Shown: piece by piece, positions 3,568-35,417 of the stretch
How the letters are laid out: every line of letters starts with the position of its first letter
How positions within the stretch are numbered: the stretch's first letter is position 1
Source of the DNA: Sulfitobacter donghicola DSW-25 = KCTC 12864 = JCM 14565
Lineage (GTDB): Bacteria; Pseudomonadota; Alphaproteobacteria; Rhodobacterales; Rhodobacteraceae
NCBI RefSeq assembly: GCF_000622405.1
Contig: NZ_JASF01000005.1
Location: 1,922,001-1,986,000, forward strand
DNA length: 64,000 bases
Direction: 5' to 3'
Notes under the pieces: generated by a model
What the model saw: only the letters and a program-made list of their open reading frames with translations
The model's database searches: none
Told to the model about the DNA's origin: nothing
Position numbers and translations under genes: made by a program

Positions 3568-3984
3568 ATGCGTCACGCACGTGGATACCGCCGTCTTAAC
3601 CGCACACATGAGCACCGCAAGGCGCTCTGGGCCAACATGGCCGGCTCGCTGATCGAGCATGAGCAGATCAAGACAACCTTGCCAAAAGCAAAAGAATTGC
3701 GCCCGATCATCGAAAAGATGATCACACTCGCCAAACGTGGCGATCTGCACGCCCGCCGTCAGGCCCGCGCACGCCTTAAAGAAGACCAGTATGTCACAAA
3801 ATTGTTCGACATCCTTGGGCCACGCTACAAAGACCGCCAAGGTGGTTACGTTCGTGTTCTGAAAGCGGGCTTCCGCTATGGTGACATGGCGCCAATGGCG
3901 ATCATCGAATTTGTGGACCGCGACCGCGACGCCAAAGGCGCCGCAGACAAGGCCCGCGTTGCAGCTGAAGAAGCCGCAGAATAA
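3568..3984 (+). CDS. rplQ: 50S ribosomal protein L17
   Basis: Large-subunit protein near the exit tunnel. Product 138 residues, starting [20 protein letters not shown], the canonical L17 N-terminus, and ending in an acidic alanine-rich tail ([13 protein letters not shown]) common in alphaproteobacteria. TTTGGAG lies upstream of the start. Last gene of the ribosomal run; a strong terminator follows. Confidence 0.97.
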
Positions 3985-4007
3985 AATTCCTCACATTTGT
4001 GAGCCGG

Positions 4008-4040
4008 AAAGCCCTGCCATTTGGCGGGGCTTTTTGTTTT
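4008..4040 (+). terminator. Rho-independent terminator after rplQ
   Basis: Stem AAAGCCCTGCC/GGCGGGGCTTT with a four-base loop, ending in TTTTTGTTTT. It closes the ribosomal-protein/rpoA unit before the Deg protease gene. Confidence 0.85.
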
Positions 4041-4114
4041 GTCACACGGTGTTTTGTTGGTTGGATTGGATGCAACGGTTGCATGAACCGTTTCGGGCGC
4101 TCATATCTGAGGGT

Positions 4115-5491: not shown

Positions 5492-5493
5492 GG

Positions 5494-6804
5494 ATGGCTG
5501 ATCTGTTTGGGGCTTCTGCAGCTTCAGTACCCGATGGGGCCCACCGTCCTTTGGCAGACCGTCTGCGGCCGACCAAACTGGGTGAGGTGATTGGCCAGCG
5601 GCAGGTTTTGGGGCCAGAGGGGCCGCTCACCGTGATGCTGGGGGCGGGTGCCTTAAGTTCGTTGGTGTTTTGGGGGCCTCCTGGGGTTGGGAAAACCACC
5701 ATCGCGCGGTTGCTGGCCGATGAAACTGACCTGCATTTTGTTCAGATCAGCGCGATCTTCAGCGGCGTACCGGAATTGCGCAAAGTCTTTGATGCGGCCA
5801 AGATCAGGCGCCAAAACGGGCAGGGCACGTTGTTGTTCGTGGATGAAATCCACCGTTTTAACAAAGCACAGCAAGACGGGTTTCTGCCCCACATGGAAGA
5901 CGGCACGATCCTGCTGGTTGGCGCCACCACAGAGAACCCGAGTTTTGAGCTGAACCGAGCGGTTCTGAGCCGTGCACAAGTGCTGGTGCTTGAACGGCTC
6001 GATGCGGATGATCTGGAAAATTTGGCCCGTCGGGCCGAAGAGGAATTGGAGGTCAAGCTCCCTCTTGATCCGTCGGCGCGGCAGGCTTTGCTGGATATGG
6101 CCGATGGTGACGGGCGGGCATTGTTGAACCTGATCGAACAGGTTGCCGCGTGGACCGTGGATCAGCCCCTAGACAGCGCGGCCCTTGGCAAGCGGCTTAG
6201 TAAACGCGCCGCCCAATATGATAAGGGTGGGGACGAGCATTACAACTTGATCTCGGCGCTGCATAAATCCGTGCGGGGCAGCGACCCTGATGCGGCGGTT
6301 TATTGGTTTGCACGCATGTTGGAAGGGGGCGAAGACCCGCGTTACCTCGCACGCCGTATCGTGCGTATGGCTGTTGAGGATATTGGCCTTGCCGATCCTC
6401 AGGCGCAGGCGGTTTGTTTGCAATGCTGGGATACATACGAACGTCTCGGTTCTCCTGAGGGGGAGCTGGCCCTGTCCCAAGCTGTGATCTATCTGGCGCT
6501 CGCGCCCAAGAGCAATGCAAACTATGTGGCCTACAAAGGGGCGCGGCGCGCGGCCAAGGCGACAGGTTCAGCGCCACCACCGAAACATATCCTGAATGCG
6601 CCGACGGCCTTGATGAAAGATCAGGGGTATGGCGCGGGCTATGCCTATGACCATGACGCCGAAGACGGGTTTTCGGGGCAGAACTATTTCCCTGATGAAA
6701 TGGAGCGCCCCTCACTTTACCAGCCCGTCGAACGCGGGTTTGAGCGGGATTTGAAAAAGCGTCTGGACTACTTCGCCAAGCTGCGTACCCAGCGAGAGAG
6801 TTGA
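5494..6804 (+). CDS. rarA: Replication-associated recombination protein A (AAA ATPase)
   Basis: AAA+ ATPase of the RarA/MgsA/WRNIP1 family, acting at stalled replication forks. Product 436 residues. Walker A is GPPGVGKT (61-68) and Walker B is LLFVDEIH (113-120). Sensor region GATTENPSFE, the C-terminal tetramerisation region and a PDxMExPxxYxP-like stretch also match the family. It starts two bases after the protease stop. Confidence 0.95.
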   Translation: MADLFGASAASVPDGAHRPLADRLRPTKLGEVIGQRQVLGPEGPLTVMLGAGALSSLVFWGPPGVGKTTIARLLADETDLHFVQISAIFSGVPELRKVFDAAKIRRQNGQGTLLFVDEIHRFNKAQQDGFLPHMEDGTILLVGATTENPSFELNRAVLSRAQVLVLERLDADDLENLARRAEEELEVKLPLDPSARQALLDMADGDGRALLNLIEQVAAWTVDQPLDSAALGKRLSKRAAQYDKGGDEHYNLISALHKSVRGSDPDAAVYWFARMLEGGEDPRYLARRIVRMAVEDIGLADPQAQAVCLQCWDTYERLGSPEGELALSQAVIYLALAPKSNANYVAYKGARRAAKATGSAPPPKHILNAPTALMKDQGYGAGYAYDHDAEDGFSGQNYFPDEMERPSLYQPVERGFERDLKKRLDYFAKLRTQRES

Positions 6805-6835
6805 CTCCGACGCCTTTGCAGGCGATTGCAGGCGC

Positions 6836-7216
6836 ATGATTTCAACTATGTCTCTTGTCGCCTTGGGCGGCGCTATCGGTGCAGCAATGCGCTTTCTCGT
6901 TGGGGTTGGGGTTATGCGCCTCAGCGGTCCTGCGGAATTTCCGATGGCGATCATCACCGTAAACGTCATCGGGTCCTTCCTGATGGGGGTCTTTGTGGTG
7001 GCTGCGGCGCACAAAGGGCTGAACCACCTTAGCCCCTTTGTGATGACAGGTATTCTGGGTGGCTTTACCACCTTCTCAGCGTTTTCGCTTGAGACGGTGA
7101 CGCTGATCGAACGGGGGCAAATTGCCCATGCTGGGGCCTATATGGCCTTGTCGGTTGGGCTGAGTATTGGTGGATTAATGTTAGGGCTATGGATAGCCAG
7201 AGGGGTATTCGCATGA
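6836..7216 (+). CDS. crcB: Fluoride channel CrcB/Fluc
   Basis: Small inner-membrane fluoride exporter, 126 residues with four hydrophobic segments. The pore Asn (N43 in TVNVIGSF) and the GGFTTFSAFS motif (75-84) are present. ATG at 6848 is an alternative start. There is no room for a fluoride riboswitch in the 31-base gap from rarA. The stop overlaps the start of the next gene as ATGA, showing translational coupling. Confidence 0.93.
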   Translation: MISTMSLVALGGAIGAAMRFLVGVGVMRLSGPAEFPMAIITVNVIGSFLMGVFVVAAAHKGLNHLSPFVMTGILGGFTTFSAFSLETVTLIERGQIAHAGAYMALSVGLSIGGLMLGLWIARGVFA

Positions 7217-8262
7217 GCCGCGTACAAACACTTACCGTTGAAGAGGGTGACGGAGATCAGCGTCTGGACCGTTGGTTCAAACGTGTCTTTCCGCATGTGC
7301 CGCAGGGGCGTATCGAAAAGATGTGCCGCAAGGGTGAAATCCGTGTGGATGGCGGCCGCGTAAAGGGATCGACACGGTTGGAGGTTGGCCAGCAGGTCCG
7401 CATCCCACCGCTGCCAACAGGTGAGGCACCTCCGCCGCCAAAACGCACAACAGTGACCGAGGCCGAGGCCAAGATGATCCGCGCTAGCGTGATCTACCGC
7501 GATGATCACGTGATTGCATTGAATAAGCCGCCAGGTTTGCCTGTGCAGGGTGGATCAGGGCAGGGCGATCGTCATGTTGACGCCCTATCCGAGGCGCTGA
7601 TGTTTGAGCTGGATGAAAAGCCGCGATTGGTGCACCGTTTGGATAAAGACACCTCTGGCGTATTGGTTTTGGCGCGCACGCGCGAAGCGGCCAAAGCGCT
7701 GACAGCAAACTTTCGTCACCGCGAGACCCGCAAAATCTATTGGGCTGCTGTCGCAGGTGCGCCGCATCCGCGCAACGGCACGATCAAATTCGGTTTGGTC
7801 AAAGCAGGCGGGCATGGCGCACGCGGTGAAGGCGAGAAAATGTATGCGGTCCATCCGCGTGATGTGGATGATACTGAGGGCGCAAAACGCGCCACCACCG
7901 ATTATTCTTTGTTAGAGCAGGTCGGCACGCGCGCCTCATGGATGGCGCTAAGCCCTGTGACAGGGCGCACGCACCAGCTGCGTGTGCATATGGCCGAGAT
8001 CGGACATCCGATTATTGGCGATGGCAAGTATGGCGGCTCGGGTCAGGAAAACATGGGCGATGGATGGGGCGCGCAACTGGGGGGTGATATCTCGAAAAAG
8101 CTGCACCTGCATGCCCGCAGCCTGACGATCCAGCACCCTGCGACCAAAGCGATGCTTAATCTTGTGGCACCGCTTCCCGACCATATGCAGCGCACATGGG
8201 ATACCTTCGCGTGGCAGACAAAGTTCGCTCCTGATGATCCGTTTGGAGAGACATGGGGATGA
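7213..8262 (+). CDS. RluC/RluD-family 23S rRNA pseudouridine synthase
   Basis: Converts specific uridines of 23S rRNA to pseudouridine. Product 349 residues: an S4 RNA-binding domain at ~15-65 and a catalytic domain with the motif HRLDKDTSG (141-149, catalytic Asp144) and the GRTHQLRVH segment. ATG at 7213 gives an ATGA overlap with crcB and matches the family start; the longer in-frame start adds eight residues encoded inside crcB. RluC is the most likely subtype, but RluC and RluD cannot be separated by eye. Confidence 0.92.
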   Translation: MSRVQTLTVEEGDGDQRLDRWFKRVFPHVPQGRIEKMCRKGEIRVDGGRVKGSTRLEVGQQVRIPPLPTGEAPPPPKRTTVTEAEAKMIRASVIYRDDHVIALNKPPGLPVQGGSGQGDRHVDALSEALMFELDEKPRLVHRLDKDTSGVLVLARTREAAKALTANFRHRETRKIYWAAVAGAPHPRNGTIKFGLVKAGGHGARGEGEKMYAVHPRDVDDTEGAKRATTDYSLLEQVGTRASWMALSPVTGRTHQLRVHMAEIGHPIIGDGKYGGSGQENMGDGWGAQLGGDISKKLHLHARSLTIQHPATKAMLNLVAPLPDHMQRTWDTFAWQTKFAPDDPFGETWG

Positions 8263-8939
8263 GCGACAAGCCACTGCGATTGGTGATCTTTGATGTTGAT
8301 GGCACGTTGGTTGACAGTCAGGCGCATATTTTGGGCGCTATGCACGCGGCATTTGCGGATGAGGGGCTAGAAACGCCTCAACGCAGCGATGTGTTGGGTG
8401 TGGTTGGTCTGTCTTTGGATGTGCTCATGCCGCGCCTTGCCCCAGATGCGGATCAGGCGGCACACGCCCGATTGGTACAAGGGTATAAAGACGCCTATAT
8501 GGCCATCAGGGCCGAGCAAACCAGCGCGGTTTCATCTCCATTCTACCCCGGTGCACGCGAAACACTGGAAGCGTTGCACGCCCAGCCCGAAGTTCTGCTA
8601 GGGGTGGCGACGGGCAAGTCCCGCAGAGGGCTGGACAAGCTGATCGAAGGCCACGGGTTGGAGGGCATGTTTGTGACGCAGCAGGTTGCAGATTTTCACC
8701 CGTCCAAACCAAGCCCAGCGATGCTATTAGAAGCATTGAAGGAAACCGGCATTGAAGCTTCGGATGCTGTGATGATTGGCGACACTAGCTTTGACATGGA
8801 AATGGCGCGGGCCGCTGGGATCGCTGGGGTTGGCGTAAGTTGGGGCTATCACCCGCGCGAAAATCTATCTGCGGCGCGGACGGTGATTGATAGCTTTCAG
8901 GCGCTTCCTTCGGTGTTAGACGAAATCTGGAAAGGTTGA
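8259..8939 (+). CDS. HAD-family phosphatase, phosphoglycolate phosphatase-like
   Basis: Haloacid dehalogenase hydrolase of about 226 residues. The nucleophile motif FDVDGTLVD (Asp12, Asp14), the GVATGKSRRG motif II and MIGDTSFDMEMA motif IV are all present, so it should be active. The start at 8259 gives an ATGA overlap with the upstream gene and ten bases to GGAG; ATG at 8253 is a weaker alternative. The Gph-like sequence suggests a small phosphoester substrate, which position alone does not identify. Confidence 0.9.
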   Translation: MSDKPLRLVIFDVDGTLVDSQAHILGAMHAAFADEGLETPQRSDVLGVVGLSLDVLMPRLAPDADQAAHARLVQGYKDAYMAIRAEQTSAVSSPFYPGARETLEALHAQPEVLLGVATGKSRRGLDKLIEGHGLEGMFVTQQVADFHPSKPSPAMLLEALKETGIEASDAVMIGDTSFDMEMARAAGIAGVGVSWGYHPRENLSAARTVIDSFQALPSVLDEIWKG

Positions 8940-8942
8940 ATA

Positions 8943-9659
8943 ATGAGCGAGTGGAAAGCGAAACGCTTTTGGAAAATGGCAACGGTAGCAGAACGCGACG
9001 GCGGCTTTGCGGTTGAGCTGGACGGGCGCAGCGTAAAGACGCCCGCGAAACAGGTTCTTCAGGTTCCGACACGTGCCATGGCCGAGGCGATTGCATTGGA
9101 ATGGGATGCCCAAGAGGACGCGATCAACCCCAACACGATGCCTGTTACCAAAACGGCGAATGCTGCGATTGATAAGGTGACGATCCAACATGAAGAAGTG
9201 GCCGAGATGTTGGCGGCTTACGGTGACAGCGACCTTTTGTGTTACCGCGCTGATTCGCCCGAAGAGTTGATTGCGCGGCAGGCCGAACAGTGGGATCCGA
9301 TGCTGGATTGGGCGGCAGAACATCTTGATGCGCGGCTCGAAACACGGACAGGTGTTGTGCACGCCCCTCAAGAGAAAACCGCGATCGAGGCGTTGCGCCA
9401 ACGTACACATGCGTTAGACCCGTTTGAGCTGGCTGCCTTTCACGATCTGGTGAGCTTGTCCGGTTCGCTTGTACTGGGATTTGCGGCTGCCATGGGCGCG
9501 CGAAGTGCAGAAGAATTGTGGGGCATCTCTAGGTTGGATGAAATCTGGCAAGAAGAGCAATGGGGCGAAGATGATGACGCAACAGCGCTTGCCGAGATAA
9601 AGCGCGAGGCATTTTTGCACGCCAAGCGAATGTTCGATCTGGCACAGCGAGTTTCCTAA
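8943..9659 (+). CDS. ATP12 family F1-ATPase assembly chaperone
   Basis: Chaperone for the alpha subunit of F1-ATP synthase, a family shared by alphaproteobacteria and mitochondria. Product 238 residues with the characteristic N-terminal region (KRFWKMATV, LDGRSVKTPAK) and the WDAQ, NPNTMPVTK segments. It begins three bases after the HAD stop and ends the gene run that started at the protease. Confidence 0.93.
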   Translation: MSEWKAKRFWKMATVAERDGGFAVELDGRSVKTPAKQVLQVPTRAMAEAIALEWDAQEDAINPNTMPVTKTANAAIDKVTIQHEEVAEMLAAYGDSDLLCYRADSPEELIARQAEQWDPMLDWAAEHLDARLETRTGVVHAPQEKTAIEALRQRTHALDPFELAAFHDLVSLSGSLVLGFAAAMGARSAEELWGISRLDEIWQEEQWGEDDDATALAEIKREAFLHAKRMFDLAQRVS

Positions 9660-9850
9660 AAATTAACCTTACCTTAGGTCAAACGGGAGGGTGTCATAGC
9701 TTTCTAAGCTGTCAGCCCTTGACCTTGGGGCGGGAATCCGCTCACAGTCGTTGGCACTCTGTGAGACATTCTTCGGAGTATCACCGCCGGCGTGCAACGT
9801 GCCGGTACTATCCGCCCAAAAAAGTGGTGGAAAATCAGGAAGAGGTAAAA

Positions 9851-10867
9851 ATGAAAAAATCAATTATTCTTGGCGCGCTGACCGTAGCTGGCCTGTCTGC
9901 TGGTATGGCAGCCGCTGGTACGCTTGACGACGTCAAAGCGCGCGGCACGCTGAACTGTGGTGTTTCCACAGGTCTGATCGGCTTTGCTGCGCCTGATGCG
10001 AATGGCGAATGGGTTGGCTTTGACGTATCTGTATGTCGCGCTGTTGCTGCGGCTGTTTTGGGCGATGCGACAGCTGTTGAATTCGTTCCTACAACAGGTA
10101 AAACACGCTTTACCGCGTTGGCGTCCGGCGAAATCGACATGCTGGCACGTAACACCACATGGACATTCTCCCGTGATGTTGACCTTAAGTTCGACTTCAT
10201 TGGCGTGAACTACTATGACGGCCAAGGCTTTATGGCTCCGAAAGAGCTGGGCGTTTCGTCCGCAAAAGATCTTGATGGCGCAACAGTTTGCATCCAGACG
10301 GGTACAACAACCGAGCTGAACCTTGCTGACTTCTTCCGCGTCAACAACATCAGCTATGAGCCAGTGCCAATCGAAACAAACGCAGAAGCACAACAGCAGT
10401 ACCTTGCTGGCGCTTGCGACGTTTTCACAACTGACGCATCCGGTCTTGCTGCAACACGTGCCGCATTCGAAGATCCCAGCGCGCACGTTCTGTTGCCAGA
10501 AATCGTATCCAAAGAGCCACTCGGCCCGCTGGTACGTCACGGCGACAACGAGTGGGGCGATGTTGTTCGCTGGACTCTGAACGCTTTGATCACCGCTGAA
10601 GAGCTGGGTGTTTCCTCTGCGAACGTTTCCGAAATGGCTGGTTCCACAAACAACCCAGAAGTAGCACGTCTGCTTGGTACCGAAGGTACATTGGGTGAAA
10701 TGCTGGGTCTTGACGCGGATGCATTCAAGCGCGCGATCGAAACTCAAGGTAACTACGGTGAAATCTTTGCTAAAAACATCGGCGAAGACACACCAATCGG
10801 TCTGGCGCGTGGTTTGAACGCACAGTGGACAGACGGCGGCCTGCTGTACTCCCCACCATTCCGCTAA
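9851..10867 (+). CDS. aapJ: General L-amino acid ABC transporter, substrate-binding protein
   Basis: Periplasmic binding protein of the broad-range amino acid importer AapJQMP. Product 338 residues; signal peptide 1-21 (MKKSIILGALTVAGLSAGMAA) fixes the start at 9851 behind a GAGG site, although the frame is open further upstream. Family segments include LNCGVSTGLIGF, FDVSVCRAVAAAV and NEWGDVVRW. A long 5' region (9660-9850) should hold the operon promoter, but no convincing hexamer pair was seen. A strong hairpin separates it from the permease genes. Confidence 0.95.
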   Translation: MKKSIILGALTVAGLSAGMAAAGTLDDVKARGTLNCGVSTGLIGFAAPDANGEWVGFDVSVCRAVAAAVLGDATAVEFVPTTGKTRFTALASGEIDMLARNTTWTFSRDVDLKFDFIGVNYYDGQGFMAPKELGVSSAKDLDGATVCIQTGTTTELNLADFFRVNNISYEPVPIETNAEAQQQYLAGACDVFTTDASGLAATRAAFEDPSAHVLLPEIVSKEPLGPLVRHGDNEWGDVVRWTLNALITAEELGVSSANVSEMAGSTNNPEVARLLGTEGTLGEMLGLDADAFKRAIETQGNYGEIFAKNIGEDTPIGLARGLNAQWTDGGLLYSPPFR

Positions 10868-26341: not shown

Positions 26342-27727
26342 ATGATTAACTCTCTTTCGGGGCGCTTGTTGGTTCTGACCACAATATTTGTGATGATTGC
26401 GGAAATTATGATTTTCGTTCCCTCCATCGCGCGGTTTCGTGAAGACTATATGTTGAACCGGCTGGAACGGGCGCAGATCGCGTCATTGACCCTGTTGGCC
26501 GATGACATGATCGATGCAGAGTTGGAAGCGGAGCTGTTGCTAAACGCCGAAGTTTTCAACGTTGTGTTACGGCGCGATGAAGTCCGACAGCTGGCTCTAA
26601 CCTCTCCAATGCCACAGCTGATATCAGAAACTGTCGATCTGCGGGATAATTCAGCGTTCATGCTGATCCGCGATGCTGGTCGGCGGCTTTTGACGCAAGA
26701 GAACGAAGTCATCCGCGTGATCGGAGCGCCAGTGCGTGACGCAGGCCTTTTGATTGAGGTCACGATGGAAACCGCCCCAATGCGTGCGGCGATGATCGAC
26801 TATGGCTTGCGCATTCTACTGCTGTCGGCCGTGATTTCCGTTATCACGGCATTTTTGTTGTTTGTCGCCATGCGGTTTCTTTTGGTGAAACCCATTAAAG
26901 GGGTCGTGAGCCACATGCAGCACTATGCTGCTGCCCCTGAAGATGCCCGTCGGGTTATCTCGCCCTCTGCAAGGGTTACTGAGGTGAGAGAAGCGGAAGA
27001 GGCGTTGAAATCCCTGCAGACCGAGCTGACAGGCGCGCTAAAGCAAAAAGAGCGCTTGGCGCAACTTGGCTCAGCGGTAAGTAAAATTAGCCATGATTTG
27101 AGAAATATCCTCACCTCGGCGCAATTGTTCACCGATCGGATCGAGATGTCGAAAGACCCCGTTGTGTCGCGTATGGCGCCAAAACTGGTCGGGTCGATTA
27201 CGCGTGCGGTTCACCTGTGCGAATCAACGCTAGCGTTTGGGCGCGCAGAAGAGCCGGGGCCCACATTGACAATGGTTGCGCTGGAAGAGGTGCTGAATGA
27301 CGTTCTGGATAGTGAACAGCTCGCGATTGGAGAGTTTGACCTCGCCTTGAAAGCGGATGTTCCTGAGGGCTTTGAGGTGCGCGCAGATCCAGAGCAGTTG
27401 TACCGCGTTATCAGTAACTTAATTCGTAATGCACGTCAGGCCATAATGGTTTCAGGCGCTTCCGGAGAGATTTGCGTCTCGGCTGCGGAGACAGCTGATA
27501 GATGGAACATCTCGCTGCGCGATACTGGACCGGGATTGCCACCCAAAGCGCAAGAACACTTGTTCTCACCTTTTCAGGGTTCCGTTCGGAAGGGAGGGAC
27601 AGGCTTAGGCTTGGCTATCTCGGCTGAACTAATGCGTGGCCATGGCGGTGATATCCAATTGGTTCAAACCAGTGCGGAGGGCACGGAATTCCTGATCACT
27701 TTGCCAAAAGGGGAAAGCGCAATTTAA
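26342..27727 (+). CDS. Sensor histidine kinase (orphan)
   Basis: Product 461 residues from MINSLSGRLL, with AGGGGA upstream; the longer start reads through the preceding intergene. Two membrane helices (~8-28 and ~157-180) bracket a ~125-residue periplasmic sensor, followed by a HAMP-like linker. Phospho-acceptor H251 (KISHDLRN), N363 (LIRNARQA), DTGPGLP (394-400) and GTGLGLA (419-425) indicate an active kinase. No response regulator is adjacent, so the partner is elsewhere. Confidence 0.92.
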   Translation: MINSLSGRLLVLTTIFVMIAEIMIFVPSIARFREDYMLNRLERAQIASLTLLADDMIDAELEAELLLNAEVFNVVLRRDEVRQLALTSPMPQLISETVDLRDNSAFMLIRDAGRRLLTQENEVIRVIGAPVRDAGLLIEVTMETAPMRAAMIDYGLRILLLSAVISVITAFLLFVAMRFLLVKPIKGVVSHMQHYAAAPEDARRVISPSARVTEVREAEEALKSLQTELTGALKQKERLAQLGSAVSKISHDLRNILTSAQLFTDRIEMSKDPVVSRMAPKLVGSITRAVHLCESTLAFGRAEEPGPTLTMVALEEVLNDVLDSEQLAIGEFDLALKADVPEGFEVRADPEQLYRVISNLIRNARQAIMVSGASGEICVSAAETADRWNISLRDTGPGLPPKAQEHLFSPFQGSVRKGGTGLGLAISAELMRGHGGDIQLVQTSAEGTEFLITLPKGESAI

Positions 27728-27805
27728 AGAATTTTGCGTTCTTTCGATTTTTGAGGAAGAAGAGGCTTGCATTGCCTGAGCGCTACTACTAAACCGCCTC
27801 TCAGT

Positions 27806-27882
27806 GGACCGATAGCTCAGCTGGATAGAGTACCTGACTACGAATCAGGGGGTCGGGGGTTCGAATCCTCCTCGGTCCGCCA
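27806..27882 (+). tRNA. tRNA-Arg (anticodon ACG)
   Basis: Complete cloverleaf including encoded CCA: acceptor GGACCGA/TCGGTCC, anticodon stem CCTGA/TCAGG with loop CTACGAA, anticodon ACG at 27840-27842, T loop TTCGAAT. Its 3' end is the left attachment site of the integrated element downstream. Confidence 0.97.
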
Positions 27883-27883
27883 C
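27869..27883 (+). repeat. Left attachment site (attL)
   Basis: TCCTCGGTCCGCCAC, covering the 3' acceptor strand and CCA of tRNA-Arg. Identical to the copy at the right end. Confidence 0.85.
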
Positions 27884-27936
27884 TGCCCTAATTCAAGTAT
27901 ATGATTTCAAACAGGAACGTTTGAAGTGTCGATATC

Positions 27937-27957
27937 TGATCCCCCACGTGATCCCCC
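27937..27957 (+). repeat. Left arm-type repeat pair (TGATCCCCC twice)
   Basis: Two direct copies of TGATCCCCC with starts 12 bases apart, about 55 bases inside the left end. The same pair with the same spacing and orientation occurs at the right end, which fits arm-type binding sites for the element's integrase. Confidence 0.6.
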
Positions 27958-28104
27958 TTGTTTCTTCGGAACTGGTCCGAACGCTTCGGGGGTTAGTGGT
28001 CTTTTCTTTAATGTTTTTGACGTCGAGGACGGAGAAGCAGACTTTTGCTGCGTCTGGTTCGAATTGCAGCAATAGACTGATAGCACTTTGATTGAAGCGG
28101 CGAG

Positions 28105-29625
28105 CTAAATCTCTACAGGCAATTCTCTTGCATCATTTTCAGCAAGACGTTCGGCAAGTTCCTTTCTCCTCGCCAGCGTCTCGTGAAACTCTTGCGCTTC
28201 AATGTCCGTGTGAAAATCCGCGTCAGGGGCCAAACGTTGCACAGCATCTTTGACCTCTGATAGCGTCACTCGAAAAAACTCTTTGCGCATATTTGCTGCG
28301 TTGATCCGTTGTTCGGAAAATTCAGCATGTAATGCCGCTTCAAGTGCTGGGGCCTCTTCTGAGTAAATCATCGCATGGGTATCGAACAAAAACGGTACTG
28401 AGGCATCACCTAGCTCACGAACACGATCAGATGGGTCAAGTCTTCTTGTTAAGCCGATCTTCACAACATCGTCGCCAAACGAGCCGATGTTCGAAATGAC
28501 GTAAACGAAACCGCTCTTGGTCTTTTCAGCCATCGCTCGCGCGCGTTCGGTTTTTGCGTGTGCCTCGGCCAAAAGTTGTTCCAGCTCTTCGACTTTGGCG
28601 CGATGGGTGTCTGAGGTAACAACCCCAATTTCAGAACGTGCTTTTTCCAAAAGTTGTTGGTAACGTTCTTCTTCTTTTTGTGCAGCTTTGGCTTCTTGAA
28701 GAAGACGCTTTTCTTCACGCTCTAGCCGAGAAGCCTCTGCGCGTTCATCGCGTTCGATCTTCAATTGTTCTCGATATTCATGCGTAAGGCGAAGTTCCCG
28801 TAACTTCACCCTCAAGTAGTTTTCAGAGATTATGACGTTGTTAGAAGTATTCAGTTTGTCGATAGCGTCACGCGCACGAACAATCCGCTTTTCCATCGCT
28901 TGTACGTTGTTCCAGCGCGTGTTTGCTATGGCTGCCTCACACTCATTGTTGAAAGCTCGTAAGGTTATGCGCACGGCGCGATTAATCATTGTCTCGCCCT
29001 TCTTCACGCTACCATCAACGGTCCATTCCTTAGTGCCAAAGACAGCCGTTTTGCGTTTAACCATGTCTTTTTGATCATCGCGGGTATCTTTGATCTCCGC
29101 TTTGAAAGTTTCGCTGTCACCAAAATCGAAATGGGGTTCGTAAACGCCAAGTTCTGCTAGGGCTAGCCTATCGTCGAATATCGCAAGTTCACCTCGAAGT
29201 CTGTCGTAAATGACTCGCTTTTCCTTATAGCTTTGTTGCAGTTGATGGATTTTGTCTTGTGCTGCACGTACCTCACCGTTCAGCTTGGAGACCTTTGACT
29301 GGGATTCATCAACTTGAGTTTGACCAAGAACAGTTAGCCTTTCTACTTCAGCTTCCGTATCAATAATTGCTGTATAGCGTTCTAATGCTTTAATATGCTC
29401 GGCCTGTGTCGTCTCAGTCTCTCTTTCGGCCTTAGCCCGTGCCTCGCGCAACCGCGAGGCGCAGTCCTCTTGAAGCTGGGCAATGTCCTGCTCTGCCTTT
29501 TGGGCAACCGCTAGTTCTTTCTTCTCGGCGCGGCGCAAACGAAAGAAGAAGAACGACGACAACAGCGCTAAGGCCAAAATGAGTATGGCAAATGCTACGG
29601 AGGTAAAATTCTGTGCTTGTTCCAT
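28105..29625 (-). CDS. SNIPE-like membrane-anchored DUF4041/GIY-YIG nuclease (phage-defence candidate)
   Basis: 506 residues. Residues 8-29 are a single N-terminal membrane helix with basic residues after it, placing the rest in the cytoplasm. Coiled coil ~32-150; DUF4041 domain ~145-310 (YEPHFDFGDSETF, WTVDGS, MINRAVRITLRAFNNECEAA); second coiled coil to ~368; C-terminal T5orf172-type GIY-YIG nuclease ~372-465. Nuclease residues seen: Y375 (FVYVI), KIG (389-391), R401, E429, H433, R440-N442 and EFF (449-451). In SNIPE the same arrangement cuts phage DNA during injection at the membrane. No strong ribosome binding site precedes the ATG. It is the cargo gene of the tRNA element. Defence activity in this host is inferred. 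Confidence 0.88.
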   Translation of the reverse strand: MEQAQNFTSVAFAILILALALLSSFFFFRLRRAEKKELAVAQKAEQDIAQLQEDCASRLREARAKAERETETTQAEHIKALERYTAIIDTEAEVERLTVLGQTQVDESQSKVSKLNGEVRAAQDKIHQLQQSYKEKRVIYDRLRGELAIFDDRLALAELGVYEPHFDFGDSETFKAEIKDTRDDQKDMVKRKTAVFGTKEWTVDGSVKKGETMINRAVRITLRAFNNECEAAIANTRWNNVQAMEKRIVRARDAIDKLNTSNNVIISENYLRVKLRELRLTHEYREQLKIERDERAEASRLEREEKRLLQEAKAAQKEEERYQQLLEKARSEIGVVTSDTHRAKVEELEQLLAEAHAKTERARAMAEKTKSGFVYVISNIGSFGDDVVKIGLTRRLDPSDRVRELGDASVPFLFDTHAMIYSEEAPALEAALHAEFSEQRINAANMRKEFFRVTLSEVKDAVQRLAPDADFHTDIEAQEFHETLARRKELAERLAENDARELPVEI

Positions 29626-29833
29626 GGCATGAGGAAAGCACTCTGGCTTTCATCATGCAACTACGGATAGTTGTTGTGGGGGGTGTTTAATTATTTTTTC
29701 ACCATTGCTCTCTTGCCGTTGATGTCTATTCGGGGCTGCACCGCAGCATCTATGAGGTGTGCGCAAGATCTGCTACGGGCCGAAAACTGGTAATTTCCCT
29801 TCATTCAGGGATTTCTATCCTACGTTGAGGAAA

Positions 29834-29867
29834 GGGCGGCGGGTGCAAAACTGCAATCCCGCCGCCC
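29834..29867 (-). terminator. GC-rich terminator after the DUF3987 gene
   Basis: Perfect 10-bp stem GGGCGGCGGG/CCCGCCGCCC with an inner TGCA/TGCA pairing. Read on the minus strand it ends in TTT, so it can stop replication-module transcription before the nuclease gene. The rest of the 273-base gap (29626-29899) holds no ORF that can be supported and should contain the nuclease promoter. Confidence 0.55.
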
Positions 29868-29873
29868 CATGCT

Positions 29874-29898
29874 GCTAATCCCGCTAATCTGCTAATCC
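29874..29898 (+). repeat. GCTAATC triplet repeat
   Basis: Three copies of GCTAATC/T at 8-9 base spacing, directly after the DUF3987 stop codon. The reverse complement of the same pattern occurs inside the integrase gene (33789-33812). Confidence 0.6.
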
Positions 29899-29899
29899 G

Positions 29900-31384
29900 T
29901 TAGACTGTTGGCCTAACGATCCGGTAAGCCTTCTTTCTGGCTTTCCCTCGCACCATTGTGTCCGGTTCTAGTGGTGCAAGCCAGCCTGCTTCGACAAGCG
30001 TGCCGATTGTTTTGTTCGCCGTTGGCCTTTCACGCAAGCTGTTAGGGCCAAGCTGCACCACTTCGCTAGGCAGGATCTCAGAGTGCTGCCACTTATCCAG
30101 CAACCAAACCCGCAAGAGTTCTGCTTTGGCTGTTTCTGCGGATATGATCGCCGCATCTTTCAGCCGCAAAGCTTCATTCAAGTGGAACTCTGCTAGATCC
30201 ACGGCGTGTGCCATTGTCTGGGCTTCTATCTGCTTTGCTTCGAGATCAGGCCAAAGCGTTAGAACTGCCGCGATCCTAGCCGCTTGTTCGGCTGTTTTTG
30301 AGGCATAGCCCGTTACACTAGAATATTTGCCGCCATCACCCATAGCGGTTTCAACTTGATCAGAGAATTGAATCAACACTTCACGGGCTTGTTCCGACAA
30401 TGGCAGAACACGGGGTGTGAGTGCGCGGGTGTGTTCATCCATAGGCAAAGGTGTTTTCAGGATGGATGTTAGACGGCTTGAGAAAGCGCCCAGCGCGGCT
30501 GGGTTCGAGCGAGTATTTGCATGTATCCTTGTTCCAATGGTGCTTGGGGGTTCGGTTATCAAGAAACGCGGTAAAAACCCTGTTTCCGCTGTCATAGGGT
30601 CGGCCATGAAGTCTCGCAACACAACTGGCTGCGCCATTAGGTGAATGGCAAGCCTGCGCCCATAAAGCACGCTAGACCCTTCGCCAGCGCGTGTGCGCTG
30701 AATGGGGTTGCCTTGCCATAGGTCATTAAGAGCCGCCAAGGTTTTCAGCCTTTGATCTTTAGACATAGCAAAGCCGCCAAGGAATTGCCCTCCTTCGTCC
30801 GAGAACAAGCCTAGGCTTGGTTGTCCCTCTGCAAGCTTGCGCACTAGCCCTTCATAGGTGGGTTCTGACACTGTGCGGTCTGTAGACGGTGGGGGCGTGG
30901 GTTCTGGTCCAAGTGCTTCTAGATCCGCTTGTGCCGCCGCCGCTTTGTCCTTCCCTTTGCCAGCTTCTTGAATACACTTTTTGTGCTGAGCTTCCCAAAT
31001 GGCTTTTGCGTTTTTGTATTGATCCACTTCAAGGCGCTGAGTGTCTGCTTGTTCTTGCTCAAAGATCCGCACAGCTTCCATCAAGGGCGCGTCACAACTT
31101 GATTTACGTTCACCTGAAAGTGCTATTGTGAGGCAGTAGAGTGATATTGCTCTGGGGCCGCCCAAGGTTTCGACATTGGCAAACCCCTGCACGCCTAGAG
31201 AGGCAATGGATATAGCGGATTGAGCGGCAATAGCGATAGGTGCTTGGCTTTGACCTTGCACCGCTTCTACCGCGTCTCTGAGCGGTCCCAATGCGTGAAT
31301 AGGATACGGTTCACCTTCGGGGATTTTTCGCAAAAGCGGTTGTGGCCCTTCGGCCTTGAATGGTGTTGGGGTGATTGCGTTCAT
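29900..31384 (-). CDS. DUF3987 (YfjI-type) protein of a mobile-element replication module
   Basis: 494 residues of the DUF3987 family, found on phages, satellites and integrative elements beside primases. Seen: a degenerate P-loop-like SGERKSS (90-96), a charged linker rich in Lys/Ala/Pro (~115-170), an acidic SDEGGQF segment, and a C-terminal winged-helix-like region (SEVVQLGPNSLRER). A helicase-like role in element replication is the usual proposal and is not proven. Overlaps the primase gene by four bases (ATGA). Confidence 0.85.
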   Translation of the reverse strand: MNAITPTPFKAEGPQPLLRKIPEGEPYPIHALGPLRDAVEAVQGQSQAPIAIAAQSAISIASLGVQGFANVETLGGPRAISLYCLTIALSGERKSSCDAPLMEAVRIFEQEQADTQRLEVDQYKNAKAIWEAQHKKCIQEAGKGKDKAAAAQADLEALGPEPTPPPSTDRTVSEPTYEGLVRKLAEGQPSLGLFSDEGGQFLGGFAMSKDQRLKTLAALNDLWQGNPIQRTRAGEGSSVLYGRRLAIHLMAQPVVLRDFMADPMTAETGFLPRFLITEPPSTIGTRIHANTRSNPAALGAFSSRLTSILKTPLPMDEHTRALTPRVLPLSEQAREVLIQFSDQVETAMGDGGKYSSVTGYASKTAEQAARIAAVLTLWPDLEAKQIEAQTMAHAVDLAEFHLNEALRLKDAAIISAETAKAELLRVWLLDKWQHSEILPSEVVQLGPNSLRERPTANKTIGTLVEAGWLAPLEPDTMVRGKARKKAYRIVRPTV

Positions 31385-32268
31385 GCTGCACCGCCTTTCA
31401 TGTTCAAATAATCATTCCAATCTTGTCCTCGTGGGGCGGGAAGTAGAGACACGTCCCAGCCCAGTGCGCTTGCCCTGTGTGCAAGTGCCTGTGCCGCCTT
31501 TAACCCTGCGCCGTTGTCGTCACTGTCAGAGGCTATGATCATCTTGTGGGGCAAGGCAGGAAGGGAGAGTGATTGCATCCCAGATGTGGAAAGCGCCGCC
31601 CAGATCATTGCTGGGCCATCCAGTAAGCCACTGGCAAGCGATAAGGCCGTTTCACTGCCTTCAGTGATAACCAATGGCCCAGCACCATCCGTTAGCCTCA
31701 CAGCGCCCCCTTTGCAGGTGCCTAGCATTGCCTTGTTCGGTGCAAGATCTGCCTTTGTGCCGCTCGCATCCAGATAGGTGCGATGCACGGCAAACGCTTC
31801 GGCCCCTTCGATCTTTGCCACCATTGCAGGAAGGCGCTGGGCGCTGTGGTGCCAGCACGCAGGATTGAACCGCAAAGTTGAGGGTAGGGCGCAAGTAATG
31901 CCCCGCCGCCGCAAGTACGTTTCCGCCAAAGTGCCAGCAATCGGCTGTGCGCTGTCCCAGATCCCCCGCGCTTGGTTGGCGCGTTGGACCAGCTTGGCTT
32001 TTTCCTGCCTGCGCCTTGTTGCCAGCTCAGCTGGATCAGGCGGGGTGTAGGTGCTGTGCCCTTCAATTAGCCCCATGCCTTTGAGTGCATCCACAATGTC
32101 CGAGAACTCACAGCCAGCGTGGCAATATGCCAAAAGGTGCCCCTGTGAGCCGTCAGAGATGCTTAGAGCGGGGGTATTAGTGTTGTGGTGCGCTGGACAA
32201 TAGGCGAGGCCGTAGCCCCCATGCCAGCGCCCCTTGAGGGCGGTTGTGATCTGCTTTGCATCGCTCAT
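31381..32268 (-). CDS. Primase-like protein with zinc finger and Toprim domain
   Basis: 295 residues from MSDAKQITTA; the in-frame start further upstream would run across the small ORF before it. Zinc-binding residues C24, H27, C49 and C53 (YCPAHH...YCHAGC) give a CHC2-type finger. The Toprim core shows E204 (VITEGSETAL) and D248/D250 (ASDSDDNGAG). Such proteins prime replication of phage and satellite genomes. Coupled by ATGA overlaps to the 52-residue ORF before it and DUF3987 after it. Confidence 0.88.
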   Translation of the reverse strand: MSDAKQITTALKGRWHGGYGLAYCPAHHNTNTPALSISDGSQGHLLAYCHAGCEFSDIVDALKGMGLIEGHSTYTPPDPAELATRRRQEKAKLVQRANQARGIWDSAQPIAGTLAETYLRRRGITCALPSTLRFNPACWHHSAQRLPAMVAKIEGAEAFAVHRTYLDASGTKADLAPNKAMLGTCKGGAVRLTDGAGPLVITEGSETALSLASGLLDGPAMIWAALSTSGMQSLSLPALPHKMIIASDSDDNGAGLKAAQALAHRASALGWDVSLLPAPRGQDWNDYLNMKGGAA

Positions 32269-32423
32269 TGTGCCGCCCCCATGATCGAGGGAGGAACAAG
32301 CATCGTTTGACGCTTGGTTTTGCTTTGTGCTAAGTAATTCTTGTTCGCCTGACACCATTGGCAAGAATTATGAGCTGGGAACTGTTGGCGCAGTTTCTGG
32401 CTCTTTTCTGTTTTATGCCCCAT
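32265..32423 (-). CDS. Small 52-residue ORF with a CxxC motif
   Basis: Starts MGHKTEKSQKLRQQF two bases after the AlpA stop (TGATCATG) and ends in an ATGA overlap with the primase start, so it fills the whole space between the two genes. Contains CQWC (a possible zinc or redox knuckle) and many Lys, Gln and Arg residues. No family is recognised; a nucleic-acid-binding accessory protein is plausible. Its existence rests on exact packing rather than similarity. Confidence 0.6.
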   Translation of the reverse strand: MGHKTEKSQKLRQQFPAHNSCQWCQANKNYLAQSKTKRQTMLVPPSIMGAAQ

Positions 32424-32425
32424 GA

Positions 32426-32611
32426 TCAAACCTCATTGCGAAGTTTGAGGCCATCAAGCCAAGCGGTGATATCAGCTTCACGCCATCCAACTGCACGCGG
32501 TCCCAGCTTCACAGCTTGGGGGAACGTGCCTTTAGACATAGCGGCATAGATTGTAGATCGGGAAAGCCCCGTTAGTGCCTCAACGGCTGGGCGTTTCAAG
32601 ATTTTCGTCAT
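32426..32611 (-). CDS. AlpA-family regulator/excisionase
   Basis: 61 residues. MerR-like helix-turn-helix of the AlpA type: LTGLSRSTIYAAMSKGTFP then GWREADITAWLD. The ATG has AAGGAG six bases upstream. AlpA proteins control integrase expression or act as excision factors. Heads the replication operon (AlpA, 52-residue ORF, primase, DUF3987). Confidence 0.9.
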   Translation of the reverse strand: MTKILKRPAVEALTGLSRSTIYAAMSKGTFPQAVKLGPRAVGWREADITAWLDGLKLRNEV

Positions 32612-32679
32612 GTTCAACTCCTTTTGCTTAGAACATGAACGAAAATTAGGGGGTCACAGCACTTGACGCATAAGGTGAG

Positions 32680-33390
32680 TTAGCCTTTTCCTAACTTTCC
32701 CCACTCAGAGGCATAGTAGATCTTTTTAACTGCATCGCCTTTGATTTTCCTGCGCCCCAAAGCAGTGTCAGATATTTCTGCAACTGCGTCACAGGCATTG
32801 ATTGAGTATTCTGTTGCATCATTCTTATAAATTGGAATGCCAGCATTATGTAAAAACTGAACAGTGTTGGCGATGGCCTTATGCATAATATCGGATTTTA
32901 AAACTTGGCGTTTTCTGGTTTTGGGCTTTTTGATCCCGCCGTTAGAAACTTGTCCAATCCAGCGTGATAAGAGCGGATGAAGGGTGAATGTCGTTTCATC
33001 ACTATATGGCATAGGCTCGCCGCCCAGCGCATGGCTGCAAAACAGTTTGACTTGATCAAAATAGTCGGGATCTTCAAAGGCTCGAAATATCATTTCCTGT
33101 GCCGCTGCCTCCGTGATCTTGGTCGTGCCACCTGTAGGCTCATTTCCCTTCGCTAGCGTGATCAAGTTGGTCATGGCAACGGGCTTCTCCCAAACATCAG
33201 GAATTGCCGCGCGTGCTTTTGCGTCATAAAGAAAATGTGACGCTGCGGCGGTCGCTACCACTTTTTCCCAATCGGCGCTTTCTGGGCTTTCACGTAAATC
33301 TTCGAGCATCTTGTGAAAAATCTTGGCACGCCTTGTTAATTCAAAATCTTGAGGGTGCGTCTGCTCTGTATATTGATCATTGTTGGTCAC
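32680..33390 (-). CDS. Element-encoded protein of unknown function
   Basis: 236 residues starting with GTG, sharing GTGA with the integrase stop, so it is translated with the integrase. No family recognised. The N-terminal two-thirds is mostly helical by composition; a basic segment (GGIKKPKTRKRQVLKSDIM) at ~153-171 could bind nucleic acid; the C-terminal part has a helix-turn-helix-like run (AVAEISDTALGRRKIKGDAVKKIY). Candidate roles are excision, control of the element or host takeover, none demonstrated. Confidence 0.75.
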   Translation of the reverse strand: MTNNDQYTEQTHPQDFELTRRAKIFHKMLEDLRESPESADWEKVVATAAASHFLYDAKARAAIPDVWEKPVAMTNLITLAKGNEPTGGTTKITEAAAQEMIFRAFEDPDYFDQVKLFCSHALGGEPMPYSDETTFTLHPLLSRWIGQVSNGGIKKPKTRKRQVLKSDIMHKAIANTVQFLHNAGIPIYKNDATEYSINACDAVAEISDTALGRRKIKGDAVKKIYYASEWGKLGKG

Positions 33391-34637
33391 AGCTTATTCC
33401 CCGCTAGGTAGCTGCCCCAATCATCCATCAACGCACGCCGCTTTTCAAACAGATCCGAGCGTGCATAAGCTGCCTCAGAGGCGTCTTTGATACCATGCGC
33501 AAGTGCAGCTTCGGCCACTTCGCGGGACGTGTCTGTCTTTTCCTGCACCCACGTTCGGAATGATGTTCTAAAGCCGTGAATATCAACGTCAAAGCCAAGT
33601 TCTTTCACAAGCTTCGAAAGCGTCATGTCAGACAACGGCTTGCTTTGCTTCGTCCCTGCAAACACAAGATCCCCGCCATCGCTCAGGTCTTTAGCTTCCC
33701 GCAAGATTTCCACGGCACGGGCACAAAGGGGAACGCGGTGTTCGCGCTTCATTTTCATGCGCTGGGCAGGAATGACCCATTCGGCCTGATTAGCAGGATT
33801 AGCGGAATTAGCAGGGGAGGGGTCGCCAAAACTGATTTCATCCCATACCGCTTCCCGCGCTTCGCCAGACCGGGCCGCTGTCAGGATCAAGAACTCAAGA
33901 GCCAGCTTTGTGGTTCGCCCAGCGCCAGAAGCTTTCACTACCTCAATGCAGGTGGCAACATCGCTATAGGGCAGTGCCTTGCGGTGCTTCACGGCTTTGG
34001 TTTGTTTGGGGAGGGCTTGGTCGATATTCTGCGCTGGATTGTCTTGCCGCCACCCTTGCGCAATTCCCCATTTCATAACCACGCCGATCCGTTGCCGCAC
34101 CCGCCGTGCCGTTTCCTGCTTGGTTAGCCAGATCGGTGTGAGTGCTGCCAGCACGTCCGCTGTGGTGATCTCACTCATTTTGTAATTCCCTAATGCGGGA
34201 AATGCGTAGGTTTCCAGAGTGCTGATAAACTGCGCCGCGTGCTTGGGGTTGGACCAGCTGGGCTTTTGCAGTTCATGCACCTTGTGAGCCGCCTCTTTGA
34301 AGGTCAGCACAGCTTGGCTCTCACGCTTTGCCCTAAGCGGGTCGCCCCCTGCGCGTGCCAGCTTGAGGTTTTGCAGCGCAGCTTCCCGCGCTTCGCTCAG
34401 GCTAACCAGATCGGCACTGCCTAGGCCCATTTCTGTGCGCTTGCTTCGAATTGTGATCCGCTGCACCCATTGCTTCGCGCCATTGGCCTTCACCTTGAGG
34501 AAAAGGCCGTTGCCATCAAAGTGCTTGCCAGCTTCGGTGACTGTGCGGACAAATGCGGCTGTCAGCGCCTTCTTAGGGGTTCGAATTCCTGTTGTAGTCA
34601 CGTATTGATCCCCCAAATGATCCCCCACTATTGGCAT
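33387..34637 (-). CDS. P4-type tyrosine integrase
   Basis: Site-specific recombinase of 416 residues. N-terminal arm-binding DUF4102-like domain (~20-105), core-binding domain, then catalytic R256 (TAARSGEAREA), H354-x-x-R357 (IHGFRTSFRTW), H381 (LAHGIKD) and Y391 (EAAYARSD). It sits next to the right end and should recombine the tRNA-Arg site. Several in-frame starts exist (34637, 34628, 34601); the right arm-type repeats overlap this region. An SPANSANPANQ insert (~274-284) is encoded by a 9-base tandem repeat. Confidence 0.94.
   Translation of the reverse strand: MPIVGDHLGDQYVTTTGIRTPKKALTAAFVRTVTEAGKHFDGNGLFLKVKANGAKQWVQRITIRSKRTEMGLGSADLVSLSEAREAALQNLKLARAGGDPLRAKRESQAVLTFKEAAHKVHELQKPSWSNPKHAAQFISTLETYAFPALGNYKMSEITTADVLAALTPIWLTKQETARRVRQRIGVVMKWGIAQGWRQDNPAQNIDQALPKQTKAVKHRKALPYSDVATCIEVVKASGAGRTTKLALEFLILTAARSGEAREAVWDEISFGDPSPANSANPANQAEWVIPAQRMKMKREHRVPLCARAVEILREAKDLSDGGDLVFAGTKQSKPLSDMTLSKLVKELGFDVDIHGFRTSFRTWVQEKTDTSREVAEAALAHGIKDASEAAYARSDLFEKRRALMDDWGSYLAGNKL
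33789..33812 (+). repeat. ATTAGC triplet repeat inside the integrase gene
   Basis: ATTAGC at 33789, 33798 and 33807, exact 9-base spacing, encoding the repeated Ala-Asn of the integrase insert. Reverse complement of the pattern after the DUF3987 gene. Confidence 0.6.
34606..34626 (+). repeat. Right arm-type repeat pair (TGATCCCCC twice)
   Basis: Two direct copies of TGATCCCCC, starts 12 bases apart, matching the pair inside the left end. They overlap the first codons or start region of the integrase gene, so integrase binding could also repress its own expression. Confidence 0.6.
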
Positions 34638-34747
34638 GAATACATCGGATTTGATAGGAAGTCACGGGAATTAAACGCCTATTGTTTCCATATTTTCAAG
34701 TACTTTAGCGGCGTTCGGTGGAGCAGGTGGGAATTTGAAATGGCGGA

Positions 34748-34762
34748 TCCTCGGTCCGCCAC
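34748..34762 (+). repeat. Right attachment site (attR)
   Basis: TCCTCGGTCCGCCAC, identical to the tRNA 3' end. Its right half also pairs with upstream TGGCGGA (34741-34747) to form a 7-bp inverted repeat with TCCGCCA. Confidence 0.85.
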
Positions 34763-34835
34763 GACAAATATCAAGAAAACTTGAAACTCCATATTTACGC
34801 GTAATTACCCCTCTAAAGGGTGCTTTTCTTACGGT

Positions 34836-35417
34836 ATGGGCCAATCTAACACCCAGAAATTGCTGCACAATCTGCGACACGGCAGGAGCAAAGCAGGGTG
34901 CGTTATATCTGTGATCAAAAGAGGAAATCAGTGGTGCCTGCGCCGCCGTGTGGCTGTGGAATTTCAACAGGTCGAATCCCGCTCCGAGGTCTGGATTAGT
35001 CTCAAAACGGATTCTCGGCGGCTTGCGTGTGAGAAAGCGCTAGCGGTTTGGAACGAACAGGTTGCTGCGTGGAAAGCCTGCCTGTCCGGTCATGATGACG
35101 ATGCAGTGAAGCACTTTGAGGTCGTTCAGGATTTAGCGTCGGCCAAGGGCGTGCGGTACATGTCCTTGGATCAGGTGGTGCAACTGGCGATCGACACCTT
35201 GCTGGACCGGATTGAGACAGGCGGGTTGACCGCCAATAGCGCGAACAAAGATCTCATCCATCTGGGTGAGGTTCTGAAAACCGTCAACAAAATGAAACGA
35301 CTGGGACTGGACCTGCCGCATGATGGGCTAGCGTTCAAAGAAGGCGAGAAGTCCGCGCCTCCGCTATTCAGCACTGGGCTGAAAAGCCCCGTCGCTTTCG
35401 AAAGGAAAGTGGCCTAA
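34836..35417 (+). pseudogene. Truncated DUF6538-type tyrosine integrase
   Basis: 193 residues matching only the N-terminal region of Rhodobacteraceae DUF6538 integrases: VIKRGNQWCLRRRV, EVWISLKTDSRRLA, VWNEQVAAWKACLSGHDDDAV, GVRYMSLDQVVQLA. No catalytic Arg, His or Tyr region follows; the frame ends in unrelated sequence. The first ~25 residues are also non-conserved. Best read as debris of an older element that used the same tRNA gene, left just outside the present right end. Confidence 0.7.

Follow-up and report, generated by a model that had tools for sequence, protein, structure and literature searches.

A SNIPE-family protein as predicted cargo of a PICMI-like element at a tRNA-Arg gene in Sulfitobacter donghicola

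Here, we report that an open reading frame of Sulfitobacter donghicola DSW-25 encodes, by its sequence, a member of the SNIPE family, and that it appears to be the cargo of a 6,879-bp (6.9-kb) integrative element at a tRNA-Arg gene, a placement supported by the repeated ends and the gene content of the element. The reading that we favor, and consider likely, is that this nuclease cuts entering phage DNA without ManYZ, that it is the cargo of a PICMI-like tRNA-Arg element, and that it protects both the host and the island. What is new here is the carrier element and the absence of a ManYZ match; the SNIPE protein itself belongs to a known, widespread family. All positions are those of the window, i.e., the whole 64,000-nucleotide stretch of DNA that was analyzed, unless another locus is named. 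The features are as follows.

27806–27882, plus strand: tRNA-Arg (ACG), the integration target
27869–27883, plus strand: att repeat on the tRNA side, 15 bp, TCCTCGGTCCGCCAC, at the 3' end of tRNA-Arg
27937–27957, plus strand: possible integrase arm-type site, one of the TGATCCCCC pair (direct repeat D10)
28105–29625, minus strand: SNIPE homologue ORF, 506 aa, ATG start; N-terminal hydrophobic helix at about residues 10–30, long coiled coil, DUF4041, T5orf172
29900–31384, minus strand: DUF3987 replication protein (helicase/primase), 494 aa; PF13148, E 2.6e-91; phrog_2373, DNA helicase
31381–32364, minus strand: Toprim primase with DUF7146, TTG start; the true start is possibly internal
32426–32617, minus strand: AlpA-type excisionase/regulator, 63 aa; Phage_AlpA PF05930, E 2.9e-20; phrog_66
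32680–33390, minus strand: 236-aa protein, GTG start; no Pfam or PHROG match; overlaps the integrase stop by 4 nt (GTGA)
33387–34637, minus strand: tyrosine integrase, 416 aa; Arm-DNA-bind_3, Phage_int_M, Phage_integrase
34606–34626, plus strand: possible integrase arm-type site, the other of the TGATCCCCC pair, 90% identical to 27937–27957
34748–34762, plus strand: att repeat on the integrase side, the same 15 bases, TCCTCGGTCCGCCAC

The SNIPE homologue and its conserved residues

An earlier note on this DNA had placed the ORF at exactly 28105–29625, here assigned to the minus strand, and had read its product as SNIPE-like. That identity stands: the PADLOC model PD-Lambda-1 (PDLC03977) covers residues 13–494 of the 506 (E 4.7e-161), i.e., it is near full-length, and the protein shares 43.8% identity over 491 aa with an Escherichia coli protein of 500 aa (L080). 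PD-Lambda-1 is the former name of SNIPE. A second PADLOC model, PDC-S57, matches more weakly (2.7e-19) and only in the nuclease part, phrog_1847, of unknown function, matches residues 12–490 (E 5.7e-135), and the NCBIfam search returned nothing at E <= 0.01. The DUF4041 and T5orf172/GIY-YIG domains that had been claimed were recovered by HMM search in Pfam, at residues 222–274 (E 2.6e-18) and 372–465 (E 3.3e-16), respectively, together with MUG113 at residues 388–464 (E 6.6e-16). The proposed single N-terminal membrane helix is predicted by a hydropathy scan; the best 19-residue window starts at residue 10 with a mean of 2.73. Such a window of at least 1.6 lies within the first 100 residues of 113 of the 120 listed homologues, our own included, and the SNIPE paper reports an N-terminal membrane helix in 59% of SNIPE homologues and two in 7% (PMC13190303). 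Taken by its sequence features, the SNIPE homologue is a probable membrane-anchored DNA-cutting protein.

The long coiled coils of the earlier note appear as long charged helices in the translation and as very long helices at residues 2–85 and 90–150 in an AlphaFold2 model built on a 33-row alignment (mean pLDDT 76.1, pTM 0.42), in which a helical middle region and a C-terminal part of mixed alpha/beta structure follow. This predicted model agrees with the elongated layout of SNIPE and adds no independent proof. Foldseek against the PDB listed 161 matches to the model at E <= 10 and none at E <= 0.001; the seventh in the list was Slx1-Slx4 (E 1.4), and Slx1 is a GIY-YIG protein. Searching the PDB with the single sequence gave no match at E <= 1, and a profile of 33 homologues gave four weak ones. 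Three of these four are to the P22 head-completion/tail-needle protein, in the N-terminal coiled coil (E 0.11–0.13), and are not significant. Tail-needle-like N-termini are described for some SNIPE homologues (PMC13190303).

The SNIPE paper names nine residues, E223, N250, L253, W257, E264, K305, I308, T319, and E414 (PMC13190303). L080, which comes from a set of five E. coli DUF4041 proteins, carries every one of the nine at these very numbers, so we took it as the SNIPE reference or a near twin. Its alignment with the window protein pairs E414 with E429, W257 with R279, and I308 with L326, so that E429, picked for mutation in the earlier note, falls on the residue whose exchange (E414A) abolished SNIPE defence (PMC13190303). 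Both key residues of that note, Y375 and E429, are present and, like K389 and G391, unchanged throughout two alignments (27 and 33 proteins), each hand-picked from the 120 listed homologues and each including the window protein. The arginine at the W257 site is a state frequent among SNIPE homologues, and W257R strengthened the defence of E. coli SNIPE against Bas14–18, one clade of phages (PMC13190303). Conservation across the aligned homologues is strong in the DUF4041 region. Over 19 close homologues (P0002–P0020), mean identity to the window protein is 66.0% for residues 1–130 versus 92.3% for the remainder. This divergence seems in line with the view of the SNIPE N-terminus as a changing adapter (PMC13190303).

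The likeness to E. coli SNIPE (PMC13190303) thus comprises the hydrophobic N-terminal helix, the coiled coil, DUF4041, the C-terminal GIY-YIG domain and E429 at the site of E414; the differences are the arginine at the W257 site and a genome without a ManYZ match. The carriers differ as well: the window gene lies on a tRNA element with AlpA and DUF3987, whereas L080 adjoins rusA, ybcO, and ninE. These three we take to be lambdoid prophage genes. Three further E. coli DUF4041 proteins, of a prophage type (L079, L081, and L082), are likewise element cargo, flanked by a CI repressor gene on one side and a phage integrase on the other; their surroundings are phage genes, whereas the window gene is part of a six-gene island, and these proteins are 558 aa long with a strong match limited to residues 215–498 of the window protein.

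The family is common. Of 8,000 candidates scored in a protein search, 5,090 were kept at E <= 0.001; at the DNA level, 288 of 5,426 E. coli genomes show a match, and 34 phage records match at the protein level, the best being an E. coli phage protein annotated PD-lambda-1 (49.6% identical over residues 106–487). The tree of the SNIPE paper already contains alphaproteobacteria (PMC13190303), and PD-Lambda-1 is reported from plasmids and from an unclassified genomic region of Vibrio (PMC12824646). We therefore regard the window protein as an ordinary member. Its nearest relatives among the genome loci are in Ruegeria and Shimia. SNIPE is sparse in the genus, with matches at E <= 1e-50 in two of 62 genomes, our own included; the second protein is 62% identical, aligned over residues 89–503.

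A tRNA-Arg element resembling PICMIs

Two exact copies of TCCTCGGTCCGCCAC lie 6,879 bp apart, and no third exact copy of this 15-bp repeat occurs on the plus strand of the window. All genes between them are on the minus strand, in the order integrase (PF00589, E 1.6e-9, above the Pfam cut-off), 236-aa gene, AlpA, Toprim primase, DUF3987, and SNIPE beside the tRNA; the Toprim primase gene overlaps the DUF3987 gene by ATGA. The TGATCCCCC repeats near both ends of the element are possible integrase arm-type sites. The att repeat and the integrase, AlpA, Toprim, and DUF3987 genes bear out the small tRNA element that had been suspected as the carrier of SNIPE. Scanning of the element proteins against Pfam and PHROGs found no capsid, terminase, capsid-remodelling or packaging-redirecting genes; P4-like satellites and PICIs carry genes of the latter two kinds. 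Just outside the integrase-side att repeat there is a 193-aa ORF (34836–35417, plus strand) with DUF6538 (E 1.8e-8), a domain found at the N-terminus of other integrases; this ORF is possibly the remnant of an earlier insertion.

PICMIs are described as satellites of virulent vibriophages, about 6 kb long and without capsid genes, which carry int, an overlapping iolg, alpA, and a DUF3987 primase, and whose hotspot for defence genes lies between the primase and the target gene fis (PMC10803314). The window element has in common with them short direct repeats, int, a gene overlapping by 4 nt, alpA, a DUF3987 primase, cargo between primase and target gene and the lack of capsid genes; its 236-aa gene holds the position of iolg, and its 6.9 kb compare with 6.1 kb for PICMI115 and an average of 6.7 kb in Vibrionaceae (PMC10803314). 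Three of the four genes mandatory in the final search model of the PICMI paper (PMC10803314) have counterparts here in the same Pfam families (PF00589, PF05930, and PF13148, with either PF05930 or PF12728 counting as AlpA); fis has none, as Pfam found no Fis domain among ten proteins in and around the element. The target is tRNA-Arg in place of fis and the host is not one of the Vibrionaceae, while the window element has a Toprim primase and the word toprim does not occur in the main text of the PICMI paper (PMC10803314). That paper reports complete PICMIs in Vibrio only, with incomplete PICMI-like variants elsewhere, and SNIPE is not among the defence systems that it lists for PICMIs (RM I and II, retron II, DRT class II, and Paris I) (PMC10803314). 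Because it is integrated at tRNA-Arg instead of fis, we call the window element PICMI-like and not a PICMI, a likeness of gene order and Pfam families. The 4-nt overlap was considered as a diagnostic and rejected: it occurs in seven of 15 element regions with an integrase match versus 12 of 46 gene pairs of the window (adjacent same-strand pairs from a hand-picked gene list, two of the 12 overlaps being within the element), and it is a weak point of the likeness, as window pairs have it too.

VEIMEs and Tycheposons, presumed to travel inside viral particles, share with the window element that they are marine, small and integrative, and are likened to it here by name alone. Both are named as marine satellites or transposon-like islands in PMC11389934. 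Among the matches listed from the open-licence literature there was neither SNIPE on a satellite nor a PICMI-like element in Rhodobacterales, which is weak evidence. A search for close relatives of the DUF3987 protein found none in viral contigs, and phage records hold three weak relatives. The tape-measure family PF10145 has no match in the genome itself, so that no resident siphovirus-type helper is indicated.

Related elements, their cargo and the insertion site

Of 295 genomes of the family, 35 contain a match to the DUF3987 protein (E <= 1e-20, our own included). Twenty of the 38 listed matches were fetched, mostly the stronger ones and with our own among them, and six of these 20 regions end at contig ends. 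A second copy of at least 14 bases of the tRNA 3' end was found for nine of 15 tRNA genes in these regions, our own included, each on the outer side of the integrase match and within about 0.7 kb of it; the target genes are tRNA-Ser, Arg, Leu, and Thr. Between DUF3987 and the tRNA lie 0.3 to 5.7 kb, with ORFs that differ from element to element. SNIPE occurs in one of the 20 regions, namely the window's own, with the six truncated regions counted in. The idea of a cargo slot full of known defence genes was not upheld: 10 of the 45 ORFs in eight other tRNA-bounded regions were scanned and none matched PADLOC, for which reason we claim no general defence role for the slot. One of the 10 is a CoiA-type nuclease. 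It is carried by the closest sister element among the fetched regions (L134, 9734–12172; DUF3987 77% identical), which also has a 394-aa ORF that matched neither Pfam nor PADLOC and a small ORF that at its start resembles a GIY-YIG nuclease by eye, although Pfam shows none; the ORFs of this element are possible undescribed cargo.

Seen from the side of SNIPE, a general tie to DUF3987 elements found no support: in a scan of 77 SNIPE loci, of which many have short flanks, the DUF3987 profile matched in no locus. Integrase, Toprim or AlpA profiles match in eight of the 77, with an integrase profile that misses at least one integrase-like ORF (L009), and of the 16 tRNA genes in these loci only the one in L009 has a second copy of its 3' end. 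There, in Ruegeria marisrubri, about 0.8 kb separates the SNIPE ORF (7263–9224, 653 aa if read from its first possible start) from tRNA-Gln, the 3' region of which recurs as a 28-base copy 6.3 kb away (3731–10095). Between the repeats there are a porin-like ORF and one that resembles an integrase (PF00589, 25.8 bits, slightly below the cut-off). This locus may be a further tRNA element carrying SNIPE next to the tRNA. Elsewhere, in an uncultured Ruegeria (L001, 9617–12718), an 87%-identical SNIPE adjoins ORFs for a UvrD-like helicase and an SMC/AAA-type ATPase, a pairing reminiscent of Gabija-type defence islands, and the SNIPE of L002 adjoins a DprA-type gene.

For the insertion site itself, 58 congener genomes were searched and 16 regions fetched. 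A histidine kinase followed by tRNA-Arg is present in all 16, and none has a match to SNIPE, DUF3987, Toprim, AlpA, or the 236-aa protein (tblastn, E <= 1e-5). One of them (L164) carries a different integrase at the same tRNA-Arg together with another occurrence of the 15-bp repeat, from which it follows that this tRNA-Arg is a used insertion site; it is the only case of a second 3'-end copy (at least 14 bases) among 19 tRNA genes in the congener regions without the element. Its integrase is followed by an overlapping gene (by 13 nt, counted from the first possible start; element at 4473–10689) and then by an HTH_17 protein. No matching empty site was seen, the three right-flank proteins having no tblastn match in the 16 regions.

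Phage entry, competing readings and meaning

The earlier note had cautioned that the sugar transporter near which SNIPE acts cannot be assumed here, and the caution was justified: EII-Sor (PF03609) and EIID-AGA (PF03613), i.e., the ManY- and ManZ-type domains, have no match in the genome (99.92% complete), while both match the E. coli control genome, so the ManYZ used by lambda is not the partner. SNIPE defence without ManYZ is described as mostly weak, against most siphoviruses tested, and as probably acting via the tape measure protein (PMC13190303). We envisage that DUF4041 would bind DNA and, when a siphovirus injects, probably its tape measure protein, and that the GIY-YIG domain, with E429, would then cut the incoming phage DNA; sensing may rely on the tape-measure contact alone or on another inner-membrane partner read by the fast-changing N-terminal part. 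The 6.9-kb carrier is built like a PICMI satellite, with its cargo slot beside the target gene, and the most likely use of SNIPE would be that the island guards the host, hence itself, against phages other than a helper, in whose particles the element would move. There is a GTA_TIM domain gene in the genome (G000:C5:140711-141604 (L171), E 2.0e-148), a domain that matches Caulobacter only among 14 control genomes and that we take to be a hallmark of RcGTA-like gene transfer agents; the genome probably has such an agent, which raises the question of whether SNIPE tolerates DNA delivered by gene transfer agent particles.

The strongest competitor of this reading, which we hold to be quite possible though below an even chance, is that the carrier is an ordinary integrative island, moved by a gene transfer agent, transformation or generalised transduction, with SNIPE as a resident defence. 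It would explain the lack of close DUF3987 relatives in viral contigs, of capsid or terminase matches among the scanned element proteins and of a PF10145 tape measure in the genome, together with the GTA_TIM gene and SNIPE homologues in unrelated contexts such as L001 and L002; it sits less well with the report that int, alpA, iolg, and primase are needed for excision or replication of PICMI115 after phage infection (PMC10803314), and we infer that a replication module would be of little use to a merely integrating island. A rather doubtful but not negligible alternative concerns the target: SNIPE may sense a different entry route, e.g., a roseobacter inner-membrane protein or the tail of a gene transfer agent, and have little general activity against siphoviruses. 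The missing ManYZ match, the strong N-terminal divergence and the GTA_TIM gene speak for such a route, while the strong conservation of the DUF4041 region and the want of a candidate partner speak against it.

That the nuclease serves the element, in excision, concatemer processing or homing, and not defence, seems to us improbable. GIY-YIG proteins do include homing and junction nucleases, and the SNIPE gene is within the mobile element and shares its strand with the replication genes, but the hydrophobic N-terminal helix and the match to a tested defence protein argue otherwise, as do the 19 other regions with related replication genes and no SNIPE match and the close homologues that occur away from such elements. 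Even less credible is a silent or decayed remnant: no promoter-like site was found in the 274-bp gap upstream of the SNIPE gene, and the five such sites over 27700–34800 equal the shuffled expectation (mean 4.7), yet the frame is intact, the invariant residues are kept and 90% identical full-length copies exist elsewhere.

Returning to SNIPE as an entry-blocking cargo of a PICMI-like element, one may tentatively go further, to a picture that we consider rather unlikely as a whole but worth stating: genomes of this family (probably Rhodobacterales) may carry minimal PICMI-like satellites at several tRNA genes with exchangeable cargo beside the tRNA, and this SNIPE may exclude competing siphophages while letting pass the injection of the element's own helper. 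In that case the nuclease would have to distinguish between the injection machines of different phages. Injection, at which SNIPE acts, is the very step that a satellite needs in order to arrive. The window element, an island whose layout resembles that of the smallest phage parasites known, hints at PICMI-like satellites beyond the Vibrionaceae, and a SNIPE on such a satellite-like island, in a genome without ManYZ, offers a natural case of how this nuclease chooses the injections to cut.
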